Of a DNA stretch of 64,000 bases, positions 24,719-58,253 are shown one piece after another. Source of the stretch: Saccharothrix australiensis (lineage in GTDB: Bacteria > Actinomycetota > Actinomycetes > Mycobacteriales > Pseudonocardiaceae); NCBI RefSeq assembly GCF_003634935.1, contig NZ_RBXO01000001.1, positions 1,389,501 through 1,453,500 of the forward strand. The letters run 5' to 3'. How positions within the stretch are numbered: the stretch's first letter is position 1; every line of letters starts with the position of its first letter. Made by a program: the position numbers and the translations under genes. Under the pieces are notes generated by a model. It was given only the letters and a program-made list of their open reading frames with translations. It was not told where the DNA came from and did not search any database.

Positions 24719-25309
24719 GTGTCCGGCTACCAGTTCGATTTGTTCATCAGTTACCCGCGTCGCGGTACTGTGCGGCAATGGTTGGTCAACCACTTCCAGC
24801 ACAAACTCCGGGAATGCCTGGCCGATCAGATCGCGCCGACGCCGAAGATCTACGTCGACAAGGACATGCCGCGCGGGGTGCACTGGCCGTCGAGCCTGCG
24901 GCACGCCTTACGGCACAGCAAGATCATGATCCAGTTGCTCACCCCGCAGTACTTCTGGTCGGACTGGTGCAGGGCCGAGTGGTACCACATGCTGGCCAGG
25001 GAGAAGATGCTCGGGTTGGCCAGCCTGGAGAAGCCCCAGGGACTCGTCTACCCCATCCTGTACGCGGATTCGGACAACTTCCCGCCGGAAGGGAAGGAAC
25101 GCGGCTGGTACGACTTCAAGGAATTCGCATACCCGGACCCCGGGTACCAGCAGACCCACGAGTTCATCCGCTTCCACCGGGAGGTCACCCGGCTCGCCGC
25201 CGACCTCGCGGCCCTGCTCCAGCAGGTGCCTCCCTGGCGGCCGGACTGGCCGGACGTCGACCCGCCCGACCCCGTGCTGCGGCCGACCCCGCCCCTGCCG
25301 AGGTTCTGA
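24719..25309 (+). CDS. TIR-domain protein, first gene of candidate defence operon
   Basis: 196 residues from GTG (SGYQFDLFISYPRRGTVRQW). The TIR fold is clear: first strand FDLFISYPRR, PKIYVDKDMPRGVHWPSSL for the box-2 region, and FWSDWCRAEW with the likely NAD-cleaving Glu at residue 87. The S-x-W-C-x-x-E signature is that of catalytic bacterial TIRs, which degrade NAD+ or make cyclic ADP-ribose signals during abortive infection. The last 40 residues are a Pro-rich tail (PPWRPDWPDVDPPDPVLRP). There is no other domain, so regulation must come from partners. The stop shares a base with the next ATG (TGATG). The start is leaderless in form. Confidence 0.85.
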   Translation: MSGYQFDLFISYPRRGTVRQWLVNHFQHKLRECLADQIAPTPKIYVDKDMPRGVHWPSSLRHALRHSKIMIQLLTPQYFWSDWCRAEWYHMLAREKMLGLASLEKPQGLVYPILYADSDNFPPEGKERGWYDFKEFAYPDPGYQQTHEFIRFHREVTRLAADLAALLQQVPPWRPDWPDVDPPDPVLRPTPPLPRF

Positions 25310-26940
25310 TGCCCACCGGGACCGTCGTCACGTTCTACTCCTACAAGGGCGGGGTCGGGCGCAGCTTCACGCTGGCCAACGTCGCCGTGCTGCTGGCCCG
25401 CTGGGGCTACCGCGTGCTGGCCGTGGACTGGGACCTGGAAGCGCCCGGCCTGCACCACTACTTCCGGTCGGTGCTGACCGCGGAACCCGAGGGCGGCGTG
25501 ATCGACCTCGCCCACGACTTCCTCGCGGGAGCGGAGCGCCCCCGCCCGCACGCCGTCCCGCTCGTCGTCGAAGGCAGCAGCACCCTCGCGCTGCTGGCCG
25601 CCGGCCGGGACGACGACTCCTACACGGAGCGGATGCAGCGCATCGACTGGGCGGACCTCTACCGGCGCGGGTTCGGCGACTTCCTGGAGTGTTGCCGGGA
25701 GGAGTGGACCGCGGACTACGACTTCGTGCTGATCGACAGCCGGACCGGGATCTCCGACATCGCGAGCATCTGCACGGCGCAGTTGCCCGATCGGCTGGCC
25801 GTCCTGTTCACCGCCAACGAGCAGAACCTCAAGGACGTCGTGAACGTCGTGCGGCGCGCCGACCTCGCGCGGGACCGGCTGCCCTACGACCGGCCCCGAC
25901 ACCTCGTGCTGCCGATCCTGTCCAGGCTGGACAACCGGGTGGAGTACGAGCGGGCCGAGCGGTGGCGGCGGAAGTGCACCGAGGTCGTCGAGCCGTTGTT
26001 CCGCAACTGGCTCGTAAAGAGCGTGCAGGTGGACCTGATGCTGCGGCACCTCACGCTGCCCTACGTCTCCTACTGGAGCTTCGGCGAGCAGTTGGCCGTG
26101 GTGGACGAGCGCATACCGTCGGCGGACCAGGTCTCGTTCGCGTTGGAGACGGTGGCGGCCGTGGTAGCGCACCAGTTCGACCGCACCGACCTGCTCGCCG
26201 ACAACCGGGACGCCTACGTGGCCTCGGCCCGTGACCGCCACCACGACTTCTCCCTGGACCTGCTGGTGTCGAGTCCGCGTCCCGCGCTGCGCGTCGCGGA
26301 CCAGTTGATCGAGGAACTGCGTGCCCTGGACCTGCGGGTCGAGCGGTCCTCGTCCGGCGACCCGGAGCTGCTCGACCGGGGCATCGAACTCGCCGAGCAC
26401 CTCTGCCTGGTGGTGGACGGCAGCCTGAGCCGCTGGCAGCTCACCGAGGCGGAGCGGTTCCTGCGGCACACGATCGCCCCGGACGACGGTCAGCGGCGGC
26501 TGTTCTGCGTGCTGACCACCGGCACCGACCCGGCGAGCCTGCCCGGCTTCCTGCGCAACCTGCGCCACCTGGGTTTCGAACCGGGTGTGCGACCCGCCCG
26601 CGTGGCACGGGAACTGCACGACCTCATCACCGGAACGCCGATCGGTGAGGTGGACGCGGACCGGGAAGCCCTCCGCGACGCGGCCTCCGTGCTGCGCGCC
26701 GTGCCGGACCGGATGCCCTCCGCCGGGCGGCTCTCGCTCGTCGAGCAGACCGTGCGCGGCATGTCCGCCGTGCTGGACGACGGCGACCTCACCGCGTTGC
26801 GCGACCTGTCGGTGGACCTCGGCGTGCTGTCCAAGCCCCATGCGGACGGCGGCCGGTTCGCGGTTCCCCACGGGCTGCTCACCGACATCCAGACCCTCCT
26901 CGACCGGATCGACCGTCGAGTCGACGCGTCCACCGACTGA
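25309..26940 (+). CDS. KGGVGR-type MinD/ParA-like ATPase with TIR-like C-terminal region
   Basis: 543 residues. VVTFYSYKGGVGRSFTLAN (residues 6-24) is the deviant Walker A of the MinD/ParA class, with Arg in place of the second Lys. The switch regions follow in DWDLEAPGLHHYF and DFVLIDSRTGISD. This KGGVGR subfamily commonly sits next to TIR or STAND proteins in bacterial conflict loci. From about residue 300 a second domain runs DFSLDLLVSSPRPALRVAD, ELRALDLRVERSSSGDPELL and HLCLVVDGSLSRWQLTEAE: strands and helices in TIR-like order but without an obvious catalytic Glu. Likely a nucleotide-dependent regulator or scaffold of the TIR effector encoded immediately upstream. Starts in TGATG, so translationally coupled. 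Confidence 0.8.
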   Translation: MPTGTVVTFYSYKGGVGRSFTLANVAVLLARWGYRVLAVDWDLEAPGLHHYFRSVLTAEPEGGVIDLAHDFLAGAERPRPHAVPLVVEGSSTLALLAAGRDDDSYTERMQRIDWADLYRRGFGDFLECCREEWTADYDFVLIDSRTGISDIASICTAQLPDRLAVLFTANEQNLKDVVNVVRRADLARDRLPYDRPRHLVLPILSRLDNRVEYERAERWRRKCTEVVEPLFRNWLVKSVQVDLMLRHLTLPYVSYWSFGEQLAVVDERIPSADQVSFALETVAAVVAHQFDRTDLLADNRDAYVASARDRHHDFSLDLLVSSPRPALRVADQLIEELRALDLRVERSSSGDPELLDRGIELAEHLCLVVDGSLSRWQLTEAERFLRHTIAPDDGQRRLFCVLTTGTDPASLPGFLRNLRHLGFEPGVRPARVARELHDLITGTPIGEVDADREALRDAASVLRAVPDRMPSAGRLSLVEQTVRGMSAVLDDGDLTALRDLSVDLGVLSKPHADGGRFAVPHGLLTDIQTLLDRIDRRVDASTD

Positions 26941-26951
26941 AAGGCGGCGGA

Positions 26952-27560
26952 ATGCCCGAGAAGCTCACGAACGAGGAACGAGCGGCGCTCATCGTGCTGA
27001 TGCTCGAAGACCGGGATGTGCCGAACGTGGAGTTGGGGAACGACCTCACGATCCGGCTCAGCAAGCCCGGCCGCGAGCGGTTGAACAAGCTCGGCCTGCT
27101 CCGGTCGTGGAAGGAGAAGGCCCGGATCGTGCACCGGATCACGGAGGAGGGGATCTCCTGGTGTGAGCGCGACTTGGCTGCGCTCGGTTCGCCGCCGAAC
27201 TCGGCTCCGCTGTTACGTGCCTACCACGCGGTGCTGATGCACTTCGTGCAGCTCCACCAGCGGCTGGGCGACCTCGCCGAGGTGCTCCGCTCCGGCCGGG
27301 ACCTGGAGTCGGTGATCCGGGCCGCCTACCTGGCGCTGTCGGTCAAGCCGCAGGACTGGGTGCGCCTGGCCAAGCTCCGGCCCAAGCTCAACGGCGCCGA
27401 GCGGGACGAGGTCGACGCGGTCCTGCTGGAGATGGTGCGGACCGGCACTGTGCACGTGGCGCCCGACTCCAACCGCAAGGTGCTGACCGAGGCCGACCAC
27501 GCCGCGGCGCTCCGGATCGGCGGCGAGGACAACCACCTGGTGGCGATCGAGGAATCATGA
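26952..27560 (+). CDS. Small helical protein with winged-helix-like N-terminus
   Basis: 202 residues. It starts MPEKLTNEERAALIVLMLED and carries a winged-helix-like unit up to about residue 70 (TIRLSKPGRERLNKLGLLRS, then RIVHRITEEGISWCERDL), followed by a helical domain (LRAYHAVLMHFVQLHQRLGD; VIRAAYLALSVKPQDWVRLA). The N-terminal pattern resembles adaptor HTHs found beside ATPases in conflict systems. No family name assigned. It lies 11 bases after the KGGVGR ATPase and overlaps the HerA-like gene by 4 bases. It could link the ATPases to DNA or to the TIR effector. Confidence 0.7.
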   Translation: MPEKLTNEERAALIVLMLEDRDVPNVELGNDLTIRLSKPGRERLNKLGLLRSWKEKARIVHRITEEGISWCERDLAALGSPPNSAPLLRAYHAVLMHFVQLHQRLGDLAEVLRSGRDLESVIRAAYLALSVKPQDWVRLAKLRPKLNGAERDEVDAVLLEMVRTGTVHVAPDSNRKVLTEADHAAALRIGGEDNHLVAIEES

Positions 27561-30500
27561 CAGAGCAACTGCGCAAGGCACTGGCCACGCTCCGCTTCAA
27601 CTCCGCCGAGACGCCGGACGACGTCTGGCAGACCTCGCCCTCCCACGTGGACGGTCTGCACGCCAAGGCGGAGGACCGCATCCGGGCCGGTATCGCGGAA
27701 GCCAAGGCCAGCAGCGGCCCCAGCCCCCTCGGGCTGGTGCTCCAGGGCAGGAAAGGGATCGGCAAGACCCACCTGCTGGGCACGGTGCGCCGCATGGTGC
27801 AGCGGGAGGGCGGGTTCTTCTTCCTGGTCGAGCTGACCACGGGCCCGGAGTTCTGGACCGACGTCGCCGAGGCGATGCGCAGCGAGCTCCGCCGGACCAC
27901 GGACGAGGGTGAGTTGCAGCTCACCGCGCTGCTCCGGCAGTTGTGCGACCTGGCGGGCGTGCCGGGGACGGTGGCGGGTGCGATCACGGGCGCGACGGCG
28001 CTGACGCCCCACGACCTCACGGTCTTCCACAACCACTTGCGCGCGGTGGACGGCCGGATAGCGGTCGAGTGCGGCGACACGATCCGCGCGCTGGTGCTCT
28101 ACGCGTCCGAGCACGCCCAGATCGGCCTGGAACATCTCCAGGGCTCGGCCGGGCCGGGCGGCGCGCACCGCGAATGGGGGCTGCCGAGCAGGTCGAAGCC
28201 GCCGCAGACGCTGGTGCGGGACATCTCGCGGGTCCTCGCCATGACCGGGCCGTGCGTCATCGCCGTCGACCAGTTGGACACCCTCGTCAACGTGGGCCGG
28301 GACGAGATCGACGCGCGGGTGACGAGCGCGGAGTCGGGCGGGGAGCTCGCGCTCATCGCCGACGGGTTGATGAAGTTGCGGGAGAAGACCAGGCGGACGC
28401 TGTCGATCGTGGCCTGCCTGCCCAACACGTGGAAGATGCTGCACTCGATCGCGAGCGACACGGTCGCCGACCGGTTCACCGAAACCCCGATCCTGGGCTC
28501 GATCGTGGACCCGGCGATCGGCCGTGCGCTGGTGGAGCGGTGGCTCGGCGTGGTGTACCGGCGCAACGACATCACGCCACCGCACCCGACCTGGCCCGTG
28601 GCGTCGAGCGCGTTCGGCCCCGGCTGGACCTCGCGGACGCCGCGCCAGCTGCTCAGGAGCATCCACCAGCACGCCGAGTCCTGCCTGTACGGCGAGATCC
28701 GGGAGTTGCGCTCGTTCGACGAGGAACCCGTAGAGGCACCCGCGCCCGCGCCCGCGCCCGACGGGGCGGAGCCCGACTACTTCCGGGAGCTCGACAGCCG
28801 GTTCGAGCGGCTGCGCGAGAAGGCGGACATCTCGGCCGCGCAGCTGAAGCAGCACAACGAGGACGAGGTGATGCCGGCGCTGCTGCTGGCCGGGCTGAAG
28901 TCGTGGATCAACGAGGTCGGCAACGACGACCTGGCCTGGCAGGCCGAACAGCTCCACGGCGGGAGTGACCTGCACGCGCAGCTGCTCCACACCGTGAACG
29001 AGGACTTGGACACCGATGAGCGCTGGGGGTTCCGCCTCATCGCGAGCGCCCACGGCAACCGGGTGCTGCGCCGGTTGCGCCACGCCCGAGACGCGGCCCG
29101 CTTCGGCCTGCGCGACCGGCACCTGGTCCTGATCCGGAACGGCGGTCAGGGGTGGGACGGCCAGCGGACCAGGGCCGAGGTGGCGGAACTGGAGCGGGCG
29201 GGTGGCCGTCGGGTCGAGATCTCGGACGACGACCTGCGGACGTTCAGCGCGCTCAAGGAGATGCAGGCCGCGCAGACCCACCAGCTGCTGGCGTGGCTGG
29301 TGGCGCGGAAACCGGTCAGCCGGACGACGTTCCTGCGCGAGATCCTGCCCGAGCCGAAGCGGTCCGCGGCGAGCCACCAGGAGACCCGCCCGCCGCCGCA
29401 CGAACCGCCGCCGCACGAACCGCCGTCACCGACCGGGATCGAGCTCGGCATGGACGGCGAGATCCGCATCGAGCTGGAGTCGCTGCGCAAGCACGCCATC
29501 GTCTTCGCGGGCTCCGGCAGCGGGAAGACCGTGCTGCTGCGGCGGATCGTCGAGGAGTGCGCCTTGCGGGGGGTTTCGGCGATCGTCCTGGACCCGAACA
29601 ACGACCTGGCGCGGCTGGGTGACGCGTGGCCGGAGCCGCCCGCCGACTGGCGGCCGGGTGACGCCGGCCGCGCCGCCGAGTACCTCGCGAACACCGAGGT
29701 GGTGGTGTGGACGCCGGGCCGCGCCGGCGGGCGGCCGCTCAGCTTCCACCCGCTGCCCGACTTCGCGGAGGTGCGCGGGGACGCCGACGAGTTCACCGCT
29801 TCGGTGGAGGCTGCGGTGGCCCGCCTGGTGCCGCACGCCAGGGTCGGTGGCGGCTCCAAGACCGCAGTGCGCGGCCAAGCCGTGCTGCGGGAGGCCCTGA
29901 CGCACTACGCGCGCACGGGCGAGCGCGACCTGTCGGCGTTCATCGACGTGCTGGCGGACCTCCCGGACGGGGTGAGCAGGCTCGGCACCGCCCGAGCGAC
30001 GGCGGCGGACCTGGCCGAGACGCTGCGCGCCGCGACGGTCAACGACCCGCTGCTCGGCGGCGCGGGCGAACCTACGGACCCCGCCGTGCTGCTGACCCCG
30101 ACGCCGGGCAAGCGCGCGCGGATCTCGGTGATCAGCTTCGTCGGGTTGCCGTCGGAGGAGCGCAAGCAGGGGTTCGTCGGCCAGCTCCAGCTGGAGGTGT
30201 TCGCCTGGATCAAACGCAATCCCGCGGTGGACCGGCCGCTCGGTGGCCTGGTCGTGATGGACGAGGCGCAGACCATCGCGCCGTCCGGCGGGTGGACGGC
30301 GAGCACGCAGAGCACGATCCTGCTGGCCTCGCAGGCCCGCAAGTACGGGCTGGGCCTGCTGCTCGCCACCCAGGCGCCGAAGGGCGTGCACAACCAGGTT
30401 GTCGGCAACGCGACGACGCAGTTCTTCGGCAGGCTGAACAGCCCGGCGCAGGTCGCCGCTGCGACCGAGATGGCCAGGGCCAAGGGCAGTTCGGTCGGCG

Positions 30501-30652
30501 ACATCTCGCGCCTGGAACGCGGTCGGTTCTACGTCACGGGCGAGACCTTCGGGTTCCGCCGGATGCGGACGCCGCTGTGCCTGAGCCACCACCCGCCGAG
30601 CCCGCTGCGGCTGGAGGAAGTGCTCGACCGGGCTCGCGACGGTCGGCGCTGA
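27557..30652 (+). CDS. Double P-loop ATPase: STAND-like N-terminal, HerA/DUF87-like C-terminal
   Basis: 1,031 residues. The first ATPase has LGLVLQGRKGIGKTHLLG (about 58-75) and Walker B CVIAVDQLDTLVN (about 233-245), followed by helical arms. A middle region with a Pro-rich linker (ETRPPPHEPPPHEPP, about 612-626) leads to the second ATPase, which is HerA/VirB4/DUF87-like: KHAIVFAGSGSGKTVLLRR (about 646-664), AIVLDPNNDLARLG, GGLVVMDEAQTIAPSGG and LGLLLATQAPKGVHNQV. HerA-type motors form hexamers that translocate DNA and recur with nucleases, Sir2 or other effectors in anti-phage systems. Two distinct motors in one chain is unusual. It closes the TIR operon and ends at a strong hairpin. Confidence 0.85.
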   Translation: MTEQLRKALATLRFNSAETPDDVWQTSPSHVDGLHAKAEDRIRAGIAEAKASSGPSPLGLVLQGRKGIGKTHLLGTVRRMVQREGGFFFLVELTTGPEFWTDVAEAMRSELRRTTDEGELQLTALLRQLCDLAGVPGTVAGAITGATALTPHDLTVFHNHLRAVDGRIAVECGDTIRALVLYASEHAQIGLEHLQGSAGPGGAHREWGLPSRSKPPQTLVRDISRVLAMTGPCVIAVDQLDTLVNVGRDEIDARVTSAESGGELALIADGLMKLREKTRRTLSIVACLPNTWKMLHSIASDTVADRFTETPILGSIVDPAIGRALVERWLGVVYRRNDITPPHPTWPVASSAFGPGWTSRTPRQLLRSIHQHAESCLYGEIRELRSFDEEPVEAPAPAPAPDGAEPDYFRELDSRFERLREKADISAAQLKQHNEDEVMPALLLAGLKSWINEVGNDDLAWQAEQLHGGSDLHAQLLHTVNEDLDTDERWGFRLIASAHGNRVLRRLRHARDAARFGLRDRHLVLIRNGGQGWDGQRTRAEVAELERAGGRRVEISDDDLRTFSALKEMQAAQTHQLLAWLVARKPVSRTTFLREILPEPKRSAASHQETRPPPHEPPPHEPPSPTGIELGMDGEIRIELESLRKHAIVFAGSGSGKTVLLRRIVEECALRGVSAIVLDPNNDLARLGDAWPEPPADWRPGDAGRAAEYLANTEVVVWTPGRAGGRPLSFHPLPDFAEVRGDADEFTASVEAAVARLVPHARVGGGSKTAVRGQAVLREALTHYARTGERDLSAFIDVLADLPDGVSRLGTARATAADLAETLRAATVNDPLLGGAGEPTDPAVLLTPTPGKRARISVISFVGLPSEERKQGFVGQLQLEVFAWIKRNPAVDRPLGGLVVMDEAQTIAPSGGWTASTQSTILLASQARKYGLGLLLATQAPKGVHNQVVGNATTQFFGRLNSPAQVAAATEMARAKGSSVGDISRLERGRFYVTGETFGFRRMRTPLCLSHHPPSPLRLEEVLDRARDGRR

Positions 30653-30715: not shown

Positions 30716-31612
30716 TCAGCCGACGGTCGAGGCCAGCACCTCGTCGATGCGCCGCCAGAGCGCGGTGAACAGCTCCTCCCGGCGGTAGGCGCGCGGTGCG
30801 CCACCGCTGCCGAGCACCGAGAAGTCGTGCACTTCGAGCACGGCCGCGCCCACTCGCGTGTCGTAGACCGGGCGTGCCCAGCCGTTGGTGAGCGCGCCGG
30901 TCCCGTCGTGCCTGCCGACCACGAAGTTCACCGTCTCGTCACCACCGATGCCGCCGCGTTGGACGTCGAGCGCGTAGACGGTGTCGCCCGCCCGCTCGAC
31001 CCGCACGGCGATCCTCGTGTCGCCGACGTGCAAGGTGCCCACGAACCCGTGCCGCTGCAGCCCCGGCAGCGCAGCGGCGAACTGCTCACCCAGGTAGCGC
31101 AGCGTCGCATCCTGCTCGGTGTAGCGGCTGAAGTCGGCGGGCACGACCGGTTCCGCATCCTGCGCCGGAGCGGATCCCTTGACCGCGGCCACCACCTCGG
31201 TGACCCGCGCGCGGTCCCGCCCGATCGCCTCCGCAGCCTCGATCCGGGCGACCAGCGACTCGGTGAGCTGATCCGGCCGGTCCGCCCTGCCGCGCACGTA
31301 GGTCACGTGCGGGTGCAGCAGCGCGGGGGGCACGGTCACGTCGTCGAGCAGCACGGGCAGCACGTGCTCGTCCCCGGCCTTGACCGCGCGCAGCACGGCC
31401 GTGGTGAAGTCGTCCACCGCCGACACGAACGGGACGAAGAACCGCACCCGCGCGTCCGGGAGGTCTCCACCCTCCTTGTGGGACCACCACTCGTGGGTCT
31501 GCTCCGACCCGTGCAGCACGGTGAGACCGCGCTGCCTGAACGCTTCGACCACCTCCTCCACGGCGGAGCGCTGCTCCTCGCCGAAGGACACGGCCACGTC
31601 GTACTCGCTCAC
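30716..31612 (-). CDS. TIR-like domain protein converging on the defence operon
   Basis: 298 residues. Tandem GTG codons; the second (31612) has GGGAGG 7 bases away. Residues 1-130 look TIR-like: SEYDVAVSFGEEQRSAVEEV, AFRQRGLTVLHGSEQTHEWW and DARVRFFVPFVSAVDDFTTA, then HVLPVLLDDVTVPPALL. The usual catalytic Glu position is not obvious, so it may be a pseudoenzyme. Residues 150-298 form a separate alpha/beta domain (YTEQDATLRYLGEQFAAALP; VRVERAGDTVYALDVQRGG; VNFVVGRHDGTGALTNGWA) that I do not recognise. Convergent placement against a TIR/HerA operon suggests an accessory or second sensor in the same defence island. Confidence 0.65.
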   Translation of the reverse strand: MSEYDVAVSFGEEQRSAVEEVVEAFRQRGLTVLHGSEQTHEWWSHKEGGDLPDARVRFFVPFVSAVDDFTTAVLRAVKAGDEHVLPVLLDDVTVPPALLHPHVTYVRGRADRPDQLTESLVARIEAAEAIGRDRARVTEVVAAVKGSAPAQDAEPVVPADFSRYTEQDATLRYLGEQFAAALPGLQRHGFVGTLHVGDTRIAVRVERAGDTVYALDVQRGGIGGDETVNFVVGRHDGTGALTNGWARPVYDTRVGAAVLEVHDFSVLGSGGAPRAYRREELFTALWRRIDEVLASTVG

Positions 31613-31858
31613 CACTGGACCTCCCTGTAACCGCCGGCCCGCCGGCCGGCTGTCCTGTTCTGCGGGGCACAGCATCGGGACCGCGTGTCGACCGGAAGTG
31701 GACGAGGAGTGGATGCGCCGCCGTCGCCCGTCGACCGTGCTGCCGGGAAACGGGCAACACCTGGTCGGCCACCGGACACCGGTGAATCATCGAGATCGCG
31801 GGCCGGACATCCGATAAAAGCCCGCAGCGCATTCATCGGTAGCCTGTGGAGGTTCCCC

Positions 31859-33412: not shown

Positions 33413-36355
33413 TCAGCGGCACGCGCAGGTGAGGGTCGCGTGCTCGGCCCGGACCTCGTCCGCTTCGGGCTGGCCGAGCGCGACGAACCCGGCCTCGGCC
33501 GCGTGCCAGTGCTCGGCGGCGACGGCGTGCTTCCCCAGCGCGTGCAGCGTCCGCGCGACGCCGCGGTGGGCGTGGGCGCCGTGGCCGCGGTTCCCGGTAC
33601 CGGTCGCCAGGTCCAGCGCGGCCCGGTACGCGTGCAACGCGCCCGCCCCGTCGTCCGCGGCCTGCGCGGTCGCGGCGCGGTCGAGGAACAGCCGCGTGCG
33701 CAGGTCGGCGTCGGAAACCTCGGCGGCCACCACGCCGGCCCGCTCCTGGCAGCGCACGGCTTCCGCCAGCCTGCCCTGCGACCGGTGCACGTTGCCGAGG
33801 TAGTTCAGGGCGTAGGCCATCAGGCAGTCGTCGCCCAGCCGGTCGGCCAGCTCGTACGCCTCCAGGTGGGCGACCAGCGCCTCGTCCGCCAACCCGAGCC
33901 GCTGCCGCACCGAGCCCAGGTTGTTCAGCGCGTGGGCCAGCCCCTGCACGTGGTCGACCTCGCGCAGCATCGACACCGCGGCCGACTGCCTGCGTAGCGC
34001 GACGTCCAACTCGCCGCGCTCCTCGTCGAGCACACCCAGCATGCTCAACGCGTGCGCTTGGCCGCGCAGGTCGCCGCAGTGCCCGTACTTCTCCAGCGCG
34101 GCGCCGAAGTGCCCGATCGCCTCGTCGTGCCGGCCGAGCTGCATCAGGGGGATGGCGATCGCGCACAGCGTGGCCGCTTCACCGGGCACGTCGCCGAGCC
34201 GCCGCCACGCCGCCAGCGCGCGGGTGGCCGACTCCAGCGCGTCCTCCAGCCGCCCGAGCCGGTCGTAGGCGGTGGCCAGGCGGAGCAGCACGTGCGCCCG
34301 TCCGTGCTCCTCGTCGGGATCGGCGCACACGGCCCGGTGCGCCAGTTCCATGCTCCCGACCCAGTCCTCGAACCGGCTCGTGGTGTGGAAGTGACGCCAG
34401 ATCAGCACCGCGAGCCGCCACGCGTGGCCGGGCAGGTCGTGCTCGGCGGCGTAGCGGATGGCGGCCACCAGGTTGTCCCGCTCGGCGGCGATCCACGCCG
34501 TCGCGTCGTGCTTGGTCGCGAAGACGGGAACCACCCGGCTGGTGCGGTGCACCGCGGGCAGCTGCGCGCGGTCGAACGGGTAGGCCGTGCCCACCGCGTC
34601 GGCCAAGCCGACCAGGTAGAAGTCGAGCAGCCGCAGCAGGGCGTCCGCGCGCTCGGTCCGGGTGGTCGGCGGCGGCTCCGCCGCGGCGAACTCCTTGAGC
34701 GGGTCCAGCATCCGGTACCGCTCGGGCGTGACCTCCTCCAGCAGGCACACCTCGTGCAGGTCGTCGAGCACCACACGGGCCGCGGCGACGTCGCGGTCCG
34801 CCAGCGCCGCCGCCCCGACCACGTCGAGGTCCGGCCCCGGCAGGTGGCCGAACAGCCGGAACACCTCCCGCTGCGGCACGTCGAGCTGGAGGTAGGACAC
34901 GCGCACCGCCGCGGCGCCCTGCTCGTCGTCGACGCCCGCGCGCCACGGCCCGCTCTCCCGCAGCAGCCGCAGCAGGTGCTCCAACGGCCACCTGTCGTGC
35001 CTGCGGAACAGCGCCGCAGCCACCCGGATCGGCATCGGCAGATGACCGCAACGGTCGACCACGCCCGCCACCTCGGCGGCCCGGCCGCGCAGGCGGAGGG
35101 GACCGACCAGCGTCCGGAACAGCGCTGCGGCGTGCTCGGGCGGCAGCGGGGAGAGCCTGATGTGCTCACCGGTGTCCGGCTCGCCCACCCGTCTGCTGGT
35201 CACGACGGCCAGGCAACCCGCCGCCTCCGGCAGCAGCGGCCGGACCTGCTCCGGCGAATGCGCGTTGTCCAGTACCACCAACGTCCTGGTGCCGTACAGC
35301 TCCGTCTGGTACAGCGTGAACTTCCGGCTCACCGAGGTGGGGATCTGCTCGGGCGGCACGCCCAGCTCGACGAGCAGCTGGGTGAGCGCGTCCGAGACGG
35401 TCGCCGCGGACAGGTTCGGCGTGTACCCGTTGAGCCGCACCAGCAGCTGCCCGTCCGGGAACCGGTCCCGCAGCCGGTGCGCCGCCTCGACGGCCAGCCC
35501 GGTCTTGCCGACGCCCGGCGCGCCGCTCACCCACACCGCGCGCCGCTCGCCCGGTGTCGAGGCGACCGCCTCGATCACGCCCAGCTCCGCGTCCCGCCCG
35601 GTGAACCCGCCGGGCCGGGACGGCAGGGAGCCGGCGGGCTCGCCGCGTTCCGCCCGCGCGGCGAGCTTGCGCAGCCGAGGCCCTGGCGCCAGCCGCAGCT
35701 CGGCGAGCGCGGCCTTGGTGCGTTGGAAGACCCGGATCGCCTCGACCTGGTCGCCGCTTGCGATCAACGCCCGCATGAGCAGTTCGGCGTGCCGCTCCCG
35801 AGCCGGGTCGCTGCGCACCACCGGGCGCAGCCGGTCCCGCGCGGACCGGTGGTCGCCGGCGGCCAGCTCGAGCGTGGCGAGGTCGCCCACCGCGTCGAAG
35901 TAGGCGGCCTCGGGCGAGATCACGTCCGGTCCGCCCACCCGGTCGATGTCGATGCCCTCCAGGAACGGGCCGCGCCACAGGTCGACGGCGGCGCGTAACG
36001 CCTCGATCGCCCGGCGCGGGTCCTCCGCGCGCACCGCCTCCTCGCACAACCGGGCGAACCGGGCGGTGTCGAGCCGGTCCTCGTCGACCCGCAGCAGGTA
36101 GCCGGTCGGTATCGTGTCGATCCACACGTCGTCCGAGTCCCGGAAGGCGTTGCGCAGCCGGTTGATGTAGGTGCGCACCAGGACGCGGCGCTCCGGGTTG
36201 CCGCCCCACACGATCTCCGTCAGCCGCTCGGTGGACACCGGTCTGTTGGCGTGCAGCAGGAGCACGACGAGGACGAAACGCTGCTGCTGGTCGCCCAGCG
36301 GCAACTGAGCGTTCCCGTGCCATACCTCCAGCGGACCCAGCATCCGAAATTCCAC
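33413..36355 (-). CDS. AfsR/SARP-family regulator: wHTH-BTAD-NB-ARC-TPR
   Basis: About 980 residues from a GTG at about 36355 with GGGAGG upstream (VEFRMLGPLEVWHGN). The OmpR-type winged helix spans 1-90 (LLLHANRPVSTERLTEIVWG). The BTAD domain spans about 95-240 and includes RERHAELLMRALIASGDQVE. An NB-ARC ATPase has VSGAPGVGKTGLAVEAAH (about 276) and RTLVVLDNA. The C-terminal third is TPR repeats (HALSMLGVLDEERGELDVAL; ALNNLGSVRQRLGLADEALV). This is the complete AfsR-like layout of large ATP-dependent activators of secondary metabolism. It converges on the XRE gene. The likely target is a biosynthetic cluster, but none adjoins directly. Confidence 0.9.
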   Translation of the reverse strand: MEFRMLGPLEVWHGNAQLPLGDQQQRFVLVVLLLHANRPVSTERLTEIVWGGNPERRVLVRTYINRLRNAFRDSDDVWIDTIPTGYLLRVDEDRLDTARFARLCEEAVRAEDPRRAIEALRAAVDLWRGPFLEGIDIDRVGGPDVISPEAAYFDAVGDLATLELAAGDHRSARDRLRPVVRSDPARERHAELLMRALIASGDQVEAIRVFQRTKAALAELRLAPGPRLRKLAARAERGEPAGSLPSRPGGFTGRDAELGVIEAVASTPGERRAVWVSGAPGVGKTGLAVEAAHRLRDRFPDGQLLVRLNGYTPNLSAATVSDALTQLLVELGVPPEQIPTSVSRKFTLYQTELYGTRTLVVLDNAHSPEQVRPLLPEAAGCLAVVTSRRVGEPDTGEHIRLSPLPPEHAAALFRTLVGPLRLRGRAAEVAGVVDRCGHLPMPIRVAAALFRRHDRWPLEHLLRLLRESGPWRAGVDDEQGAAAVRVSYLQLDVPQREVFRLFGHLPGPDLDVVGAAALADRDVAAARVVLDDLHEVCLLEEVTPERYRMLDPLKEFAAAEPPPTTRTERADALLRLLDFYLVGLADAVGTAYPFDRAQLPAVHRTSRVVPVFATKHDATAWIAAERDNLVAAIRYAAEHDLPGHAWRLAVLIWRHFHTTSRFEDWVGSMELAHRAVCADPDEEHGRAHVLLRLATAYDRLGRLEDALESATRALAAWRRLGDVPGEAATLCAIAIPLMQLGRHDEAIGHFGAALEKYGHCGDLRGQAHALSMLGVLDEERGELDVALRRQSAAVSMLREVDHVQGLAHALNNLGSVRQRLGLADEALVAHLEAYELADRLGDDCLMAYALNYLGNVHRSQGRLAEAVRCQERAGVVAAEVSDADLRTRLFLDRAATAQAADDGAGALHAYRAALDLATGTGNRGHGAHAHRGVARTLHALGKHAVAAEHWHAAEAGFVALGQPEADEVRAEHATLTCACR

Positions 36356-36768: not shown

Positions 36769-37689
36769 ATGAACGCGCACGCGGACCTGGTCCGGGAGTT
36801 GAAGTCGCTGCGCAAGGGCCGCGGCGTGCTGGCCGGCGGGATCGCGGACCGGGTGGGCCCGACCCTGCGCGCGGCCTGCGGGGTGACGGAGGACGACGAG
36901 CCCGGCGCGATCCGGCGGAAGGTGACCGACACGATCAGCGAACTGGCCGGCAGGCTGCCCGAGGACCTCCACCGGGCCACGCTCGTGGCGTTCGCCATCC
37001 ACGAAGAGGCGCGGCTGCCGCTGTACCAGGACCGGGTGCAGTGGGTGGCGGTCCGGATGGACCGGGACCCGCGCACGGTCCGCCGCCGGGTCGACGAGGC
37101 CATCGACCACCTCGCGGAACTGGCCGCCGACGCGGTCGGCGAACAGTCGGACCGGCGGCCGGGCGGCTGGCACACCGCTGAACTGCACGCCGTCCTCACC
37201 CTGGACCGGCCGCGTCCCGAGGTGATCGAGCGGCACCGGGTCGTCGCCGACCGCGACGGCCTGCACGAGCTGGCCCTATCGCCCCCGCTCCCCTTGGACC
37301 CGCCCGACCTCGACCTCCGGGTGCTGTACGGCGGCACCCTGGTGGACCGCTCCACCCCGGCGCTCGCGCTGCCGACCGCCGTCCGCCGAGGCCGTTCCCA
37401 CGACTTCGCGATCCGCTACCGGCCGGCCACCTCGCACGAGACGTGGTCCTACCTTGTCTACGTGCCACGGCACCCGTGCGACCTGCTGGACCTGAGGGGC
37501 CGCTTCGGCGACATTGCCGTCCCACCGCGCGTGTGGGCGCTGCAAGGCGCCGACCGGTCCGGCGGTTCCGTCCCGGCTCCCCGCGGTCACGAGCACCCGG
37601 TGGACCGGGCGGGCGAGATCCACCTGAGGTTCCACGACCTCACGCCCGGCCTGGCCTACGGGGTGCGGTGGGAGGCGACGAGCCGCTAG
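36769..37689 (+). CDS. Unrecognised 306-aa protein
   Basis: It begins MNAHADLVRELKSLRKGRGV, a basic helical start, and residues about 10-125 are helical and HTH-like (ALVAFAIHEEARLP region, then VRMDRDPRTVRRRVDEAIDH). The C-terminal 170 residues are strand-rich (HRVVADRDGLHELALSPPLP; RVLYGGTLVDRSTPALALP; ETWSYLVYVPRHPCDLLDLR) and end TPGLAYGVRWEA. The pairing of a regulator-like helical half and a beta half suggests a sensor or DNA-binding protein. I cannot assign a family. It lies downstream of the possible 77-aa gene and is convergent with the FAD monooxygenase. Confidence 0.65.
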   Translation: MNAHADLVRELKSLRKGRGVLAGGIADRVGPTLRAACGVTEDDEPGAIRRKVTDTISELAGRLPEDLHRATLVAFAIHEEARLPLYQDRVQWVAVRMDRDPRTVRRRVDEAIDHLAELAADAVGEQSDRRPGGWHTAELHAVLTLDRPRPEVIERHRVVADRDGLHELALSPPLPLDPPDLDLRVLYGGTLVDRSTPALALPTAVRRGRSHDFAIRYRPATSHETWSYLVYVPRHPCDLLDLRGRFGDIAVPPRVWALQGADRSGGSVPAPRGHEHPVDRAGEIHLRFHDLTPGLAYGVRWEATSR

Positions 37690-52351: not shown

Positions 52352-54607
52352 TCAGGCCCTCCGCCGGCGGAACAGGGACAGCGGTCCGCGCCGTTCGTGC
52401 CGCATCCGCCAGCTCTGCCACCACTTGGGCCAGCCCGCCTTCGGCGCGGGCACGTCGAGCGCGTCCGCCATCGGCTTGAGCCCCGCGCCGACCCGGTCCA
52501 GGTGCTTCGCCCGGCGCTTGCGCAGCGCGGCGGGCAGCGTCCGGTCGACCAACTCCTCCCTGGTGGACGCGTCACCCAGGGAACGCCACGCGACGACCAC
52601 CGCCGCGACCTGGTGCGGTGGCGCGGTGGCCAGCACCTCGGCCGCGGTCGCCCGGTAGGCGGGCAGGAACACGTCGCGGTGCTCGTCCAGCGCCCGCTGG
52701 AGCAGGTCGCGGTGCGCACGGGGGTCCGCGCGCAGCACGAACGCCGCGACGGCGGCGGGCAGCCGGTCGCCCACCCCGTCGCGCAGGGTCGCCGCCAGCG
52801 CGAGGCCGGCCAGCACGACCCGTTCGCCGCCGGGGCCGGGCACGGCGGAGCGGAGGTGCGTGATGCTCTCGGCCGCCTTGAGCCCGTCGCGGTCGCCCGG
52901 CCGCAGGTGCGCCGCGAACGGCGACCGCAGCAGCGCGTCGACCAGGCCGTCCTCCTCGCGGCTGACCCGGTCGCGGCGCGCGGCCTCCAGCGCCCGCGCC
53001 ACGATCCGCGCGCCGACGCCGCTGTCCAGGAGCACCTGTCCGGGCACGCGGCGCAGCAGCCGCACGGCGTCCTCCGCGGACGGGTCCTCCGGCCACAGGA
53101 CCGGGCCGAGCCGCCGCCAGTCCACCGGGTGCGGTCGCGTCGGGTCGGCCATCACCCGCACCCGGTCCAGTTCGCCGTGCCGGGCCAGCGCCACCTCCGC
53201 GAGCAGCTCGACCCGTTCCCCGCCCCGGCCCGCGAGCAGGCGCGCCACCGCGAGCGGCAGCGCCGCCGCCAGCCGCGCGACCTCCCGCGGGTCCACGAGC
53301 CGGTGGTCGAGCACCCGGACCAGCGCGTCGACCAGGTCGCGCTGCTCGGCCAGCCGGTCCAGCACCACGGGCGTCGGCGCGCCGGTGAGCGCGGGCAGCA
53401 CGACGTTCTCGGCGACGTCCGCCAGGTCGTCCGCCGCCAGCCGCGGCAGCCAGCAGCGGTCCGCGGTGCCCAGCGCCGCGACGAAGTACGTGCCGTAGAG
53501 CTTCGACGGCACGGGCTCGGCCTGGTGCCACGCGGTGCGCAGCACCTCCGACCAGCCGGCCACGTCCGTCGGACCGCCGATGTCCTGCACGGCGTCCGCG
53601 ACCCGTTCCCAGGCTTGCCGGGGCACGCACCCGCGCATCCGGTCCACGGCCAGCCGCACGGCCGCGAGCAGCAGGTCCTCGGCCGCCGGCGCGGCGGGCA
53701 GCCCGAACGCCGCCTCCAGCAGCACCGCGAACGCGTCCAGCTCGGCGGCGGTGAGGCGCGGCTCGGCCCGTGCCGCGAGCTCCAGCGCGGCGGGCGTCGC
53801 GTCGCGCTCCCACAGCCGGGCCAGCGCCGCCGCGTACCGGGTGCCCTCGACGCCCGGCGGCCGGTCGTCGGTCAGGTCGAGCACGGTGAAGTCGCCGTAG
53901 GTCGGCAGCCGCACGTCCGGCGTCGTGCAGCTCACCAGCGCGCCCGACTCCTCCGGCCGCGCCGTGTACGTGGTGAACGAGACGCGCAGCCCCAGCGGGT
54001 GCGGCAGCGACCGGCAGGTGGCGGCGAGCCACCGCGCGGCCGACCGGTCGTCCGGCACCACCAGCACCAGCCGCTCCCGACCCGACACCAGCGCCCGCTG
54101 CGTCGCGCCGAGCACCGCTTCCAGCGCGGCGGTCGCGCCCCGGCCGCCCAGGAACCGGCGCGTGCTCGGCAGGTCGGTCTCGTCGCCGGGCGCGAGGGAG
54201 GTCACCTCGGGCAGGGTCGTCCCCCCGGACCTGGTGTGCGCCCACGCCCGGCTGCGCCACAGGTCGATCGGCAGCACGGCGCCGAGTTCGACCTCCACGT
54301 CGTCGAACACCAGGGCGTGGGCGAAGTAGTTGCCCATCCGGCCGGTGAAGTCCGCACCCGCGTACCTGCTCTGGAACAGCGTCGCCGCGCGCCCGGACGC
54401 CAGGTAGCCGAACGTGACGGGGAACCCGCTCAGGTCGGCGTCGCCCAACCGCCCGACCAGGCCGGGGCCCGGTTCGTAGGCGCTGGCGCGGACCGCCAGC
54501 TCGACCAGCCGGCGCGGTGTGCCCGGGGTCATCGCGCTGACCTGGAAGCCCTGGATGCCCTCCAGGCCGTCCTCGCAGGAGGTGTAGTGCAGTTGGCGGA
54601 CGGCCAT
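52352..54607 (-). CDS. GAP1-like (GTPase-associated protein 1) protein
   Basis: 751 residues, ATG with GAGGAGGAAG upstream. The N-terminal 250 residues (VRQLHYTSCEDGLEGIQGFQ; MGNYFAHALVFDDVEVELGA; LGLRVSFTTYTARPEESGAL) match the GAP1-N2 domain pattern. The remainder is helical (GAP1-M/C regions), for example PSKLYGTYFVAALGTADRCW and HLDRVGAGLKPMADALD. GAP1 proteins occur only next to specialised GTPases in multi-gene conflict systems, and this one sits between two such GTPases. The start overlaps the stop of the interrupted GTPase by 1 base. Assigned by pattern, not search. Confidence 0.75.
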   Translation of the reverse strand: MAVRQLHYTSCEDGLEGIQGFQVSAMTPGTPRRLVELAVRASAYEPGPGLVGRLGDADLSGFPVTFGYLASGRAATLFQSRYAGADFTGRMGNYFAHALVFDDVEVELGAVLPIDLWRSRAWAHTRSGGTTLPEVTSLAPGDETDLPSTRRFLGGRGATAALEAVLGATQRALVSGRERLVLVVPDDRSAARWLAATCRSLPHPLGLRVSFTTYTARPEESGALVSCTTPDVRLPTYGDFTVLDLTDDRPPGVEGTRYAAALARLWERDATPAALELAARAEPRLTAAELDAFAVLLEAAFGLPAAPAAEDLLLAAVRLAVDRMRGCVPRQAWERVADAVQDIGGPTDVAGWSEVLRTAWHQAEPVPSKLYGTYFVAALGTADRCWLPRLAADDLADVAENVVLPALTGAPTPVVLDRLAEQRDLVDALVRVLDHRLVDPREVARLAAALPLAVARLLAGRGGERVELLAEVALARHGELDRVRVMADPTRPHPVDWRRLGPVLWPEDPSAEDAVRLLRRVPGQVLLDSGVGARIVARALEAARRDRVSREEDGLVDALLRSPFAAHLRPGDRDGLKAAESITHLRSAVPGPGGERVVLAGLALAATLRDGVGDRLPAAVAAFVLRADPRAHRDLLQRALDEHRDVFLPAYRATAAEVLATAPPHQVAAVVVAWRSLGDASTREELVDRTLPAALRKRRAKHLDRVGAGLKPMADALDVPAPKAGWPKWWQSWRMRHERRGPLSLFRRRRA

Positions 54608-55707
54608 CACTTCCTCCTCGTCCGGATCGCCCCGAACCGGGCCAGCAACCACAACATCGGGTCCTCCAGGCGGTAGGGGTGCACCCCGGCGGGTGACAGG
54701 CGGGTGCCGCTGACCGGGGCCGCGCCGAGCGCGGACAGGCCGAAGTACCGGTAGGTCCGGAACGCGTTGGCGACCGTGCGGTCGAACGCCGGGTCGTACC
54801 AGCGGTCGAGCCAGCCGCGGACCTCCTCGTGGACGTCCCGGCCGTCCGCCTCGTCGTAGCCGCCGTCGTGCCGGGACGGTTGGCGCAACGGCGATTCCGG
54901 GCCGAACGTGTCGCGCAGCAGGTCGACCTTGGTGAGCGCGACCGCGAGCGGCGTGCGCAGCCGCTCGCCGGCCGTGCCGCGGCGGCGTTCGCGGAGCAGT
55001 TCGCCGAGCCGGTTCACGACGTGGAGCTGCTCGGTGAACCCGGTCTTCGCGGTGGCGCCCACCAGCTCGCGAACCTTGGGCATCTGCACCGGGTCGAGCA
55101 GGAGGACGATGCCCTCGGCCGCGTCGAGGTAGCCGATGAGCTGGTCCATCGCCCGCGCGTGCGCCACGTCCTCGCCCGCGGTGTCGTAGAAGACCGTGAC
55201 CACCGGCGCGACGCGCGCGGGTCCGATGAGCCGTTCCCGCCGGAAGCGGAGGCTGAACATCAGCGGCTCCGGGGTGGACCGCTGCGCCGACGGCGTCTGG
55301 TGCACCGGGCGGCCCTCCTCGAACAGCGGCGTGGCGAAGTCGCGCGCGTAGCGCACCCGCGACGCCTCGCCGAGCAGGTCGAGCTACATGCCGGGGAACC
55401 GGGCGCTGACGTCGCCGCGCTGGAACTCGTGCACCAGCACGCCGACCCACGTGCTCTTGCCCGAGTCCGACGACCCGATCACGGCGATGGTGCGCCCGCC
55501 GCTGTCGAGGTACTCGCGCAGCAGGTCGCGGCCGCAGCCGGGGCACGCCCGACGGCCCTGCGGCAGGTTGCCGTGCGGGCAGCGGCCGTTCTTCAGGTCG
55601 CGCTCGCGGAACCGGGTCGCCCGGTCCGCGCAGCGCTCGCCGCAGCTCAGGCGGAGGTCGGCGCGGCGGTGCTTCGTCCAGCAGTAGGGGCAGGTCGCGG
55701 TCGCCAT
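54607..55707 (-). pseudogene. DO-GTPase gene interrupted by an in-frame amber codon
   Basis: One continuous frame of 367 codons, from MATATCPYCWTKHRRADLRL, is broken only by TAG at 55384-55386. Before the stop are zinc-binding CxxC pairs and the G1 loop TIAVIGSSDSGKSTWVGVL. After it, in the same frame, are VVTVFYDTAGEDVAHARAMD (G3) and LAVALTKVDLLRD (G4). Since G1 and G3/G4 belong to one GTPase, the stop splits a single domain. A GTG at 55356 might restart translation but would lack the P-loop. Codon bias is normal on both sides, so the mutation is recent, a sequencing error, or suppressed. The gene is coupled to its neighbours by TGATG junctions on both sides. Confidence 0.8.
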
Positions 55708-58253
55708 CAGGCTCCTCGCACGATGAGGTGGTCCGGTCGCAGCGGGACGAGGACGACGTGCTCGTCCAGGGAGAACGCCCGCAGGTGCACCGGGCGGCGC
55801 AGGTGGCGCGGCACCTCGAACGGCCGCCCGGCGGTCGACTCGCCGCCGGGCACGCGCAGCAGGACCTCGCCGTCGCCCGCGTCCATCGGCCGGATGCCCG
55901 ACTTGGCCACCACGACCACGCCGGGCGTCACGTCGTCCTCGACGGCGAGGGCCCGGTGGCGCGACAGGAGCCCGACGCGCCGCACCGAGTAGCGCGCGGT
56001 GCGCGTCGCCGTCTCCCGGCGCACGGTGAGCGGGCCGAAGACCGGCGCGCCGTCGGCGGTCCGGGCGGTGCACACGCCGAACCAGTGGGCGCCCGCGGGC
56101 ACCGTGACCGACACGCCGCGGTTGTCGTAGCCCACCCTGGTGATGTCCATTGTGGACGCTTCCGGGTCGGTCGGCCCGGTGGGCGCGGTGGACGCGCGCC
56201 ACACCACGCGCGCCGCCGTCGCGCCCGGCGGCCACTCCCAGGTGACGCGCACCGTCGCGCCCAGCCGCTCCAGCCGCAGCGCGGTCACCGGGCCCTGCCG
56301 GGGGTCCACCGCGAACGGCGTGCCGATCGCGGCCAGCTCGCCGAGCACGGTCACGGGCACGAGGACGCGCCGCCTGCCCGGTTCGGCGGTCCGGCCGCGC
56401 AGCACGCCGCGGCCGGCGAGCACGTCGCCCGCCACCGGTGCGCCGAGCCGGCGCGCCTGCCGCGCCGACACCACCGCGGGCGCGGGCGGGTCCTCGCCGT
56501 CGCGCAGCTCCAGCAGCTCCACCTCGCCGCGCGGCGGGGGCGTCCACCGCGCCACCAGCTCGTCGTGGTCGACCTCGGCGACGAGGTCGACCACCCCGAC
56601 CGGCACCTCCTGGCAGCTCGCGGACGCCACGACGCCCTCGCTGAGCGCGGTGCCGCCGCCGGGCAGGCGGTAGCGCGCCCGTACCCGGTAGCGGTAGGTC
56701 TCGCCGGGGCGCACGTCGTGGTCGACGAACGCGGTCGGGCGCGCCTCGCCGACCGGCGCGCCGGACCGGGTGACCACAGCGCCGTCCGCGCCGTCCGGCA
56801 ACCGCCACCGGCCCGACACCGAGTCCGCCGCGCCGCGCACCGCCAGGTCCAGCACCTCGCCCAGGACGGTCACGGGCGCGGTGCGCGCCGCCCGCGCCGA
56901 CGGGTTGCCGTCCCGCAGCGCGTGCACCTCGTACACCAGGGGCGTCCCGTTCGGCGGGTCCGGGTCGACCAGCTCGCCGGCCGCCGTGTCCGCCGCCAGC
57001 ACGGTGCCGTCGCGGCTGACCCGGTACGCGACGCGGCCCGCCGTGGCGGCGCTCGGCGCCCACGTCACGACGACCCGCCCCGCGCGCACCACGGCCGTCG
57101 CGGACGGCGGCGCGGGCGGGCGGCACCGCTCCAGCGCGACGTCGACCCGCTCGTCGGCCAGCTCCTCGCGGACCCGGTGGTAACCGGCCACCGCCGCCTC
57201 GACGTCGGTCCGCTCCAGCTCGCGGCACCGGTCCAGCTCGGCGTCCAGCTCGGCCAGCCGCCGCGCCAGCCCGTCCCGCCGGCGCGACCACTCGTCGGGC
57301 AGCGCGGGCTGCTGGTCGAGCACCGCCAGCGCGGCCCGCAGCCGCAGGTCCAGCACCGCCCGCTGGTAGTTCGCCTGCCAGTCGGGTTCCGGCGCGGCGG
57401 TGGTGAACCGGCGGTCGCACCACGCCGCGTACGCCACCGCGTCCGGATCCCCGCCGACGCCCAGGGCGCGCAACCGGTCCGCCGCCGCGCGCGCCGCCGC
57501 GACGGTCTCGGCGTACCCGTAGGCCGCGCGGTCCAGCAGGTGGCCCACCACCTCGTGGCGCAGCACGTCGGCCAGCTCGCCGCTCTCCAGCCACCCCTGC
57601 ACGAGCCGCAGCAGGGTGGTCTCGGCGGCGCTGTCGGACGAGCGCGACACGCGCAGCTCCTCCCGCCGCGCCGCGAGGCGCGGCCCGGTCGTGCCGAGGC
57701 CGCCCAGACCGGACAGGTAGTCCCACAGGGAGTCGTGCCGCAGCCGCGCCAGCACGCCCAGCACCTCCGCCCACCGGCCCGGTTCGGCCGGGCGCGGCAG
57801 GTCCACCGGCGTGCGCTCGCCGCCGCCGTTGCGCCGCAGGGCGGCCAAGACCGCGCTGCGCGGCACCTTCAGCGCGCGGGCCTGCGCGGCGACCTCGGCC
57901 GGCGGCAGGCCCGGCGCGTCGCGCACCCTCTCCCGCAGCGCGTCGGCCAGCTCGCGCGCCCGCCGCTCCACCAGCGCGCGGTGCGCGGCGCGCGAGGCGG
58001 GGTCGAGCAGGGTCCGGGCGGCGTCCTCGTGCTGCCCGCGCAGGATCTCCGCGGCCCGGCGGAACGCCCGGTACCGCTGCCGCGTGAACTGCCTGCCGAC
58101 CTCGGCCAGCGCGGCCTCCACGGTCGCGCGGTCGGCCACGTCGTGGGGTAACAGGTAGACGCGGAACAGGTCCTCGTCCGGGCGCCAGCCGTCCTGCACC
58201 GGCTTGAGCACCTCGTCGACGAACCGGGCCGCGTCGAACTCCCAGCCGGTCAC
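55707..58253 (-). CDS. DnaK-associated protein with helical N-terminus and FN3-like repeats
   Basis: 848 residues from GTG overlapping the DnaK stop by 4 bases. Residues 1-360 are helical; the start (DAARFVDEVLKPVQDGWRPD; RQRYRAFRRAAEILRGQHED) vaguely recalls a J-domain-like hairpin. A coiled stretch follows (LAELDAELDRCRELERTDVE). The C-terminal half has at least four fibronectin-III-like sandwiches, each with a W near the start and an YRYRV-type strand: VVVTWAPSAATAGRVAYRVS; VRPGETYRYRVRARYRL; ELVARWTPPPRGEVELLELR; VRVTWEWPPGATAARVVWRA. It probably serves as a client or recognition scaffold for the dedicated Hsp70. Family not named with certainty. Confidence 0.7.
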   Translation of the reverse strand: MTGWEFDAARFVDEVLKPVQDGWRPDEDLFRVYLLPHDVADRATVEAALAEVGRQFTRQRYRAFRRAAEILRGQHEDAARTLLDPASRAAHRALVERRARELADALRERVRDAPGLPPAEVAAQARALKVPRSAVLAALRRNGGGERTPVDLPRPAEPGRWAEVLGVLARLRHDSLWDYLSGLGGLGTTGPRLAARREELRVSRSSDSAAETTLLRLVQGWLESGELADVLRHEVVGHLLDRAAYGYAETVAAARAAADRLRALGVGGDPDAVAYAAWCDRRFTTAAPEPDWQANYQRAVLDLRLRAALAVLDQQPALPDEWSRRRDGLARRLAELDAELDRCRELERTDVEAAVAGYHRVREELADERVDVALERCRPPAPPSATAVVRAGRVVVTWAPSAATAGRVAYRVSRDGTVLAADTAAGELVDPDPPNGTPLVYEVHALRDGNPSARAARTAPVTVLGEVLDLAVRGAADSVSGRWRLPDGADGAVVTRSGAPVGEARPTAFVDHDVRPGETYRYRVRARYRLPGGGTALSEGVVASASCQEVPVGVVDLVAEVDHDELVARWTPPPRGEVELLELRDGEDPPAPAVVSARQARRLGAPVAGDVLAGRGVLRGRTAEPGRRRVLVPVTVLGELAAIGTPFAVDPRQGPVTALRLERLGATVRVTWEWPPGATAARVVWRASTAPTGPTDPEASTMDITRVGYDNRGVSVTVPAGAHWFGVCTARTADGAPVFGPLTVRRETATRTARYSVRRVGLLSRHRALAVEDDVTPGVVVVAKSGIRPMDAGDGEVLLRVPGGESTAGRPFEVPRHLRRPVHLRAFSLDEHVVLVPLRPDHLIVRGA

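Follow-up and report, generated by a model that had tools for sequence, protein, structure and literature searches.

The locus raises the question of whether four adjacent genes on the plus strand, at 24,719-30,652 of the window (the whole 64,000-nt stretch of DNA analysed), work as one defence system, and of how that system relates to those already described. The genes encode, in this order, a TIR protein, a KGGVGR P-loop ATPase, a winged-helix (wHTH) protein and a 1,031-aa AAA-HerA protein. We consider it reasonably probable, judging from the sequences, that the operon is an anti-invader defence in which a DNA-translocating wHTH/AAA-HerA sensor would trigger a TIR NADase via the KGGVGR ATPase.

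The four genes form a recurring operon

An earlier note on this DNA had described the four genes as tightly coupled, and comparison with relatives, whose genes were called with a codon-score gene finder and clustered by a bit-score/coverage rule, confirmed that the unit is real and recurs. With repeated genomes counted, the gap between the TIR and KGGVGR genes lies between -16 and +16 in 70/72 loci, the one between the KGGVGR and wHTH genes is exactly 11 in 26/78 and the wHTH and HerA genes overlap by 4 or 1 in 103/123; a promoter scan gave 0 promoter-like sites. When the four proteins were run against the Pfam, NCBIfam and PADLOC models, a check that the note had proposed, only parts of the set were matched and no model named the whole, so that naming it by family models was rejected. 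Nuclease models in these collections found no match in the products of the operon, with the large protein scanned at full length and its middle domain only as a part of it.

The winged-helix and AAA-HerA proteins

The winged-helix protein (202 aa; 26952..27560, +) gave an AF2 model with a pLDDT of 89.6, and structure searches with this model placed a MarR-like wHTH fold at residues 1-78, in agreement with the previous description of a small wHTH-like protein. A second wHTH-like segment, defined by secondary structure only, spans residues ~118-199. Its gene shows the highest dN/dS of the four in 6/6 relatives compared (0.43-0.71, within 0.19-0.71 over 24 comparisons of operon genes, in which the shorter gene-finder start at 24770 was used for the window TIR gene), as expected of a part with a predicted recognition role. 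A comparison of the wHTH profile with PDB sequences listed 60 of 194 matches, calmodulins, that were taken as chance.

The large protein (1031 aa; 27557..30652, +) is composed of an AAA domain, a REase-like middle and a HerA ATPase, as assigned by Pfam AAA_22 and DUF87, by its AF2 model (pLDDT 80.7, pTM 0.55) and by its HerA fold. The N-terminal AAA domain (27557..28696, +), identified with Pfam, carries a Walker A motif at G64-T71 and D238-Q239-x-D241, and the corresponding columns in relatives hold these letters and otherwise only gaps. AAA_22 was found in 40/40 members of the family; Pfam ORC-CDC6-like was found in 24/40 at E≤0.5, with a best value of 0.0035, and covers only 15 residues of the window protein, at Walker A. 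The HerA/FtsK-clade ATPase (29372..30616, +), identified by structure search, carries Walker A at G652-T658, D902-E903, R928 and Q939, and each of the nine residues checked is kept in 116/116 rows. Its fold lies near HerA, VirB4, DndH-C and SIR2-HerA structures, and most of these alignments start near model residue 606 and scarcely cover the part upstream. The earlier attribution of two ATPases to this protein, one of them N-terminal and the other of HerA/DUF87 type, was thus borne out by the families, the fold and the conserved motifs in both. Between them, the middle domain (28775..29347, +) shows a helix-strand-strand-strand-helix-strand order in the secondary structure of the AF2 model, and E-x-K was not seen in it; from the helix/strand order of residues 407-597 in the whole-protein model, it is a possible inactive restriction-endonuclease fold.

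The TIR and KGGVGR proteins as a predicted effector pair

The TIR protein (196 aa; 24719..25309, +) matches Pfam TIR_2 with 45.5 bits. The intact S-x-W-C-x-x-E motif that had been read in it is present, with E87 encoded at 24977-24979; W83, C84, A86 and E87 are conserved among relatives, and E87 is kept in all distinct aligned rows having a letter there. As the protein also matches FxsC_Nterm, with 52.9 bits and under the cut-off of 130, it is, on this profile match, a distant FxsC relative.

The second protein (543 aa; 25309..26940, +) is a MinD/ParA-like P-loop ATPase, matching NF047398 with 151.8 bits and PADLOC PDC-M28B with 8.5e-28, and its checked KGGVGR motif residues are kept in all distinct rows having a letter there. 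While the ATPase assignment of the earlier note stood, the TIR-like tail claimed for the same protein is weakly supported: a possible tail at residues ~315-444 contains S374-x-W-x-x-x-E380, a motif of this kind is kept in the tail of relatives, but a comparison of the TIR profile with the KGGVGR profile gave no significant match. Residues 457-510 form a CATASP-like helical end, with a CATASP match in 18/18 family members at E≤0.1 (best 8.2e-9; 17.6 bits for the window protein, under the cut-off of 29).

We then regarded the KGGVGR ATPase as belonging to the effector half of the operon, because its gene accompanies TIR outside this operon too, in FxSxx-COOH loci and in HerA-less pairs. Its membership of the four-gene unit holds, with this change of place. 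In loci L207 (5847-8758) and L208 (5409-7495), TIR and KGGVGR genes form pairs, with neither wHTH nor HerA in the 13 kb stretches retrieved. Four weaker KGGVGR matches (L203-L206) adjoin TIR-like genes, and L203 is an FxSxx-COOH locus, where FxsB (582.9 bits), FxsC (159.6), TPR (907.1) and KGGVGR (147.3) all score above their cut-offs. At L209, another weak KGGVGR match, the called genes include no TIR-like neighbour, and KGGVGR is therefore not invariably beside TIR. On this evidence of gene neighbourhood, TIR and KGGVGR are predicted to behave as a single interchangeable effector module.

The HerA-less pairs, together with the FxsC-type TIR found with a KGGVGR-TPR protein in FxSxx-COOH loci and the HerA pairs that have other partners or none found, are also what would be seen if the four genes were independent neighbours, with TIR-KGGVGR acting alone, wHTH-HerA having another job and the two being functionally uncoupled. 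We regard this as unlikely, since gene junctions are tight across loci and, among 149 genomes, 22/22 KGGVGR matches above 800 bits adjoin a HerA match (coordinates compared by eye), the 8 other KGGVGR matches in the same genomes, to which L203-L209 belong, scoring lower. The cognate gene sets of duplicated cassettes point the same way. Four Actinokineospora genomes were compared, each having one cassette from each of two deep TIR clades, and in 4/4 the three nearest relatives of every copy, for all four genes, belong to that copy's clade; on these relationships, the divergent duplicated cassettes each retain a cognate gene set. Over 64 loci, the distances between pairs of sequences also correlate from one of the four proteins to another (r 0.77-0.94). 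As the TIR variant makes up a single group, found in essentially one family, shared ancestry may account for much of the co-occurrence. A coupled defence operon is still the reading that we favour, although this ancestry, the HerA loci at which none of the listed partners was found and the failure to find a HerA relative in the phage and viral sequences searched count against it.

A constant core with exchanged partners

Of 149 genomes, 40 contain a relative of the large protein, the source genome being one of them. In a scan of species genomes at least 596 stretches matched, 564 of those listed being relatives, and the best 80 were kept. A wHTH profile (E≤1e-6) found a match in 6/396 genomes drawn from the phylum, own genome included, and the core is therefore patchy in the phylum. 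No HerA relative was found in the phage collection, and of 14 pattern matches in viral contigs none was confirmed as one.

At 129/129 HerA loci examined, tblastn found a wHTH relative upstream of the HerA gene, no more than 4.5 kb away, irrespective of strand. The partners, tagged by tblastn (E≤1e-4, the queries including every locus's own proteins), were TIR+KGGVGR in 77 loci, DUF559 in 19, DUF4365 and/or M02B in 12 and AIPR in 6, and 15 had none of them; the loci are the best matches to the window protein, which overstates the share of TIR, and some genomes occur twice. The 77 loci with TIR+KGGVGR show that the four-gene unit recurs, a point that the earlier note had asked to be checked. Representative partner genes match DUF559, DUF4365 and AIPR, as well as the PADLOC AbiU and PDC-M02 models. 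AIPR genes lie downstream of HerA in their 6 loci, and pPIWI-RE genes lie upstream in 4/6, recognized by domain scan in L056 and L058 and by cluster only in L059 and L064. L057 is a sibling operon with DUF4365 and M02B. Three plasmid records carry a relative of the large protein, and one of them is alphaproteobacterial, from Methylobacterium aquaticum, where a HerA protein with 37% identity is preceded by a DUF559 gene and a wHTH gene.

After removing near-identical copies and proteins shorter than 930 aa, 115 rows of the 129 loci entered a quick, midpoint-rooted HerA tree, in which two long branches (L162, L163) meet. The TIR label (67 rows of 115) needs 2 changes on this tree against a shuffled mean of 36.8; DUF559 needs 3, DUF4365 5, AIPR 1 and loci with none of the listed partners 6. 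The TIR+KGGVGR versions form one group, nearly all Pseudonocardiaceae, that includes a Nocardia record (L087) and one locus without the pair (L128), and three DUF4365 rows branch beside it. The tree thus indicates partner exchange (DUF559, DUF4365, AIPR, TIR) on a single putative sensor/motor core. Taken with the wHTH gene upstream in all 129 loci and the differing partners, we conclude from these comparisons that wHTH and AAA-HerA are the constant core and that the partner genes vary. A DUF559 ancestor of the core is only suggested, because the tree is a quick midpoint-rooted one with the long branches of L162 and L163 meeting.

The DUF559 and DUF4365 genes of sibling operons, and a published capture model that proposes the feeding of DNA to a nuclease (PMC10853773, seen in part), would suit a restriction-like system in which HerA captures and moves invader DNA, DNA cutting is primary and TIR is only the back-up. 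Against it, the four proteins of the operon match no nuclease model of Pfam, NCBIfam or PADLOC, and E-x-K was not seen in the middle domain as placed by the AF2 model; we hold this alternative to be improbable beside a HerA core that would signal to TIR.

Two further observations concern HerA loci outside the TIR group. L054, L066, L138, L148 and L153 have no listed effector and have upstream a divergent pair encoding proteins of 1310-1368 aa and 109-111 aa, the large one of L054 having, by eye, a trypsin-like start. In plasmid 22 of Tsukamurella tyrosinosolvens (L163:7293-12261, annotated), rplN and rpsQ of the ribosomal protein operon are separated by a DUF559-wHTH-HerA operon and a few other genes; the same placement was seen by eye at L212:6455-11369, and the interval is possibly a shared insertion site for this operon.

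Neighbouring genes

Flanking genes were counted up to 10 kb from HerA in 112 loci (the 115 minus three plasmid loci), of which 68 belong to the TIR clade (44 TIR_A and 24 TIR_B, the latter assigned by hand from the tree) and 44 are others; some loci end at contig borders. Downstream of the window operon lie three accessory candidates. The first (30716..31615, -), convergent, 299 aa with an uncertain start, is a weak TIR-like protein (TIR_2 20.1 bits, under the cut-off of 28), whose cluster is present in 36/44 TIR_A loci and in 0/68 other loci. The second (33413..36343, -) is, by domain scan, a SARP/BTAD - NB-ARC - TPR regulator, with its cluster in 49/68 TIR-clade loci and 2/44 others, and the third (36769..37689, +) encodes a 306-aa protein with no Pfam or NCBIfam match, with its cluster in 49/68 and 0/44, respectively. 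A SEFIR gene is present in 24/24 TIR_B loci and in 0/88 others, and an NsdA-family regulator also lies beside the window operon. The extra genes of the TIR clade could be further parts of the system or merely conserved neighbours. Conservation of the flanks at TIR_A loci is more in keeping with a stable chromosomal site than with a shuffling defence island, the setting in which the earlier note had asked for the four-gene order to be sought.

A developmental or stress cell-death or signalling system of multicellular actinomycetes, not directed against phages, would agree with the TIR/KGGVGR relatives in FxSxx-COOH loci, the adjoining SARP/NB-ARC and NsdA-family regulators and the conserved TIR_A flanks, and is nevertheless very improbable, the core occurring also in other families, with DUF559 on an alphaproteobacterial plasmid, and beside pPIWI-RE and AIPR genes.

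Elsewhere in the window, three proteins are encoded at 52352-59824 (-): one of GAP1-N2/M/C type, one of 848 aa with no Pfam match and one that is HSP70-like. The group resembles the GTPase/HSP70 conflict systems in the part of PMC7159879 that was seen.

Proposed mechanism and comparison with known systems

In the anti-invader reading, the wHTH and AAA-HerA proteins would form a sensor/motor complex binding invader DNA, along which HerA, probably as a hexamer, would translocate. The engaged complex would alter the KGGVGR ATPase, so that the TIR protein is released or assembled, and TIR would cleave NAD+ or make an ADP-ribose signal, after which the infected cell would no longer support the phage. 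More tentatively, and at less than even chances, the HerA machine might directly control the TIR NADase, with the MinD/ParA-like KGGVGR protein as a portable adaptor and TIR-KGGVGR as a plug-in common to FxSxx-COOH systems and HerA capture, and the product might reach the nearby SEFIR or TIR-like gene product in a two-step TIR cascade triggered by DNA capture. With interchangeable effectors on one core, the operon looks like a predicted anti-phage system; its TIR variant makes DNA-motor activation of an NADase a testable question and suggests KGGVGR ATPases as TIR partners.

Among known systems, Thoeris differs from the operon, in which the TIR protein scores low with ThsB (11.9 bits, E 0.022) and with ThcB4 (23.6 of 220 bits) and the ThsA model has no match among the four proteins in the Pfam, NCBIfam and PADLOC searches. 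PADLOC systems are matched in parts only: PDC-M02 by the sibling operon L057, PDC-M28B by the KGGVGR protein and MADS by mad8, which is the nearest model to the large protein and covers its HerA part only; a literature search for MADS found no paper devoted to it. The FxSxx-COOH radical-SAM peptide systems have an FxsC-type TIR adjoining a KGGVGR ATPase that carries a TPR fusion, and MinD/ParA-like P-loop domains are reported in actinobacterial peptide-processing systems (PMC7159879, in the part seen); unlike them, the window operon has a KGGVGR protein with no TPR fusion and a TIR that scores under the cut-off for FxsC, and it continues with wHTH and HerA genes.

SIR2-HerA (Nezha) and DUF4297-HerA share, in the descriptions available to us, a HerA motor with an effector on a separate gene, and the SIR2 effector is classed as an NADase in the parts seen of PMC12948488 and PMC11291478. 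The window operon differs in its TIR effector, in the fusion of HerA to AAA and REase-like regions and in the extra wHTH and KGGVGR genes; its four proteins match no SIR2 or DUF4297 model in Pfam, NCBIfam or PADLOC, and the large protein scores 23.7 bits with HerA_antiphage (cut-off 800). An N-terminal HAS domain belongs to the HerA of those systems, and the region ahead of model residue 606, where one might lie in the large protein, was scarcely covered by the structure alignments. A BREX-related branch has also been described (PMC12839542, in part).

The closest likeness is to the HerA/FtsK capture systems of Rakesh, Aravind and Krishnan (2024), which, in the portions of PMC10853773 seen, combine an AAA of Orc/CDC6 type with REases, both inactive and active, and with multi-wHTH proteins that evolve fast, in a model where DNA is intercepted and fed to nucleases. 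There, the inactive REase is placed between AAA+ and wHTH, an active REase is usual among the core domains, a subset has a rapidly evolving protein with 2-4 wHTH and the domains are fused in varied ways. The window operon shares the AAA ATPase, the HerA/FtsK ATPase, the rapidly evolving wHTH protein and possibly the inactive REase; compared through the same published descriptions, it differs in having no detected nuclease and, as effector, TIR with a separate KGGVGR ATPase. The proposal of an undescribed system is therefore upheld for the TIR composition, which was unmatched, and not for the core, which resembles published HerA/FtsK capture, the operon being one effector variant. A HerA system with a TIR effector was not found in the literature searched, largely titles and abstracts with few subscription journals, and the operon would, if the reading is true, rank as the first capture system of HerA type to have such an effector in that literature; its novelty is lessened by related Orc/CDC6 proteins that, outside HerA association, are fused to TIR (PMC10853773, as far as seen). 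Because the Orc/CDC6 match is weak, the middle fold is model-based and the window operon has no detected nuclease, the operon resembles a variant rather than a proven member of the HerA/FtsK capture systems, with a core that fits the capture theme.
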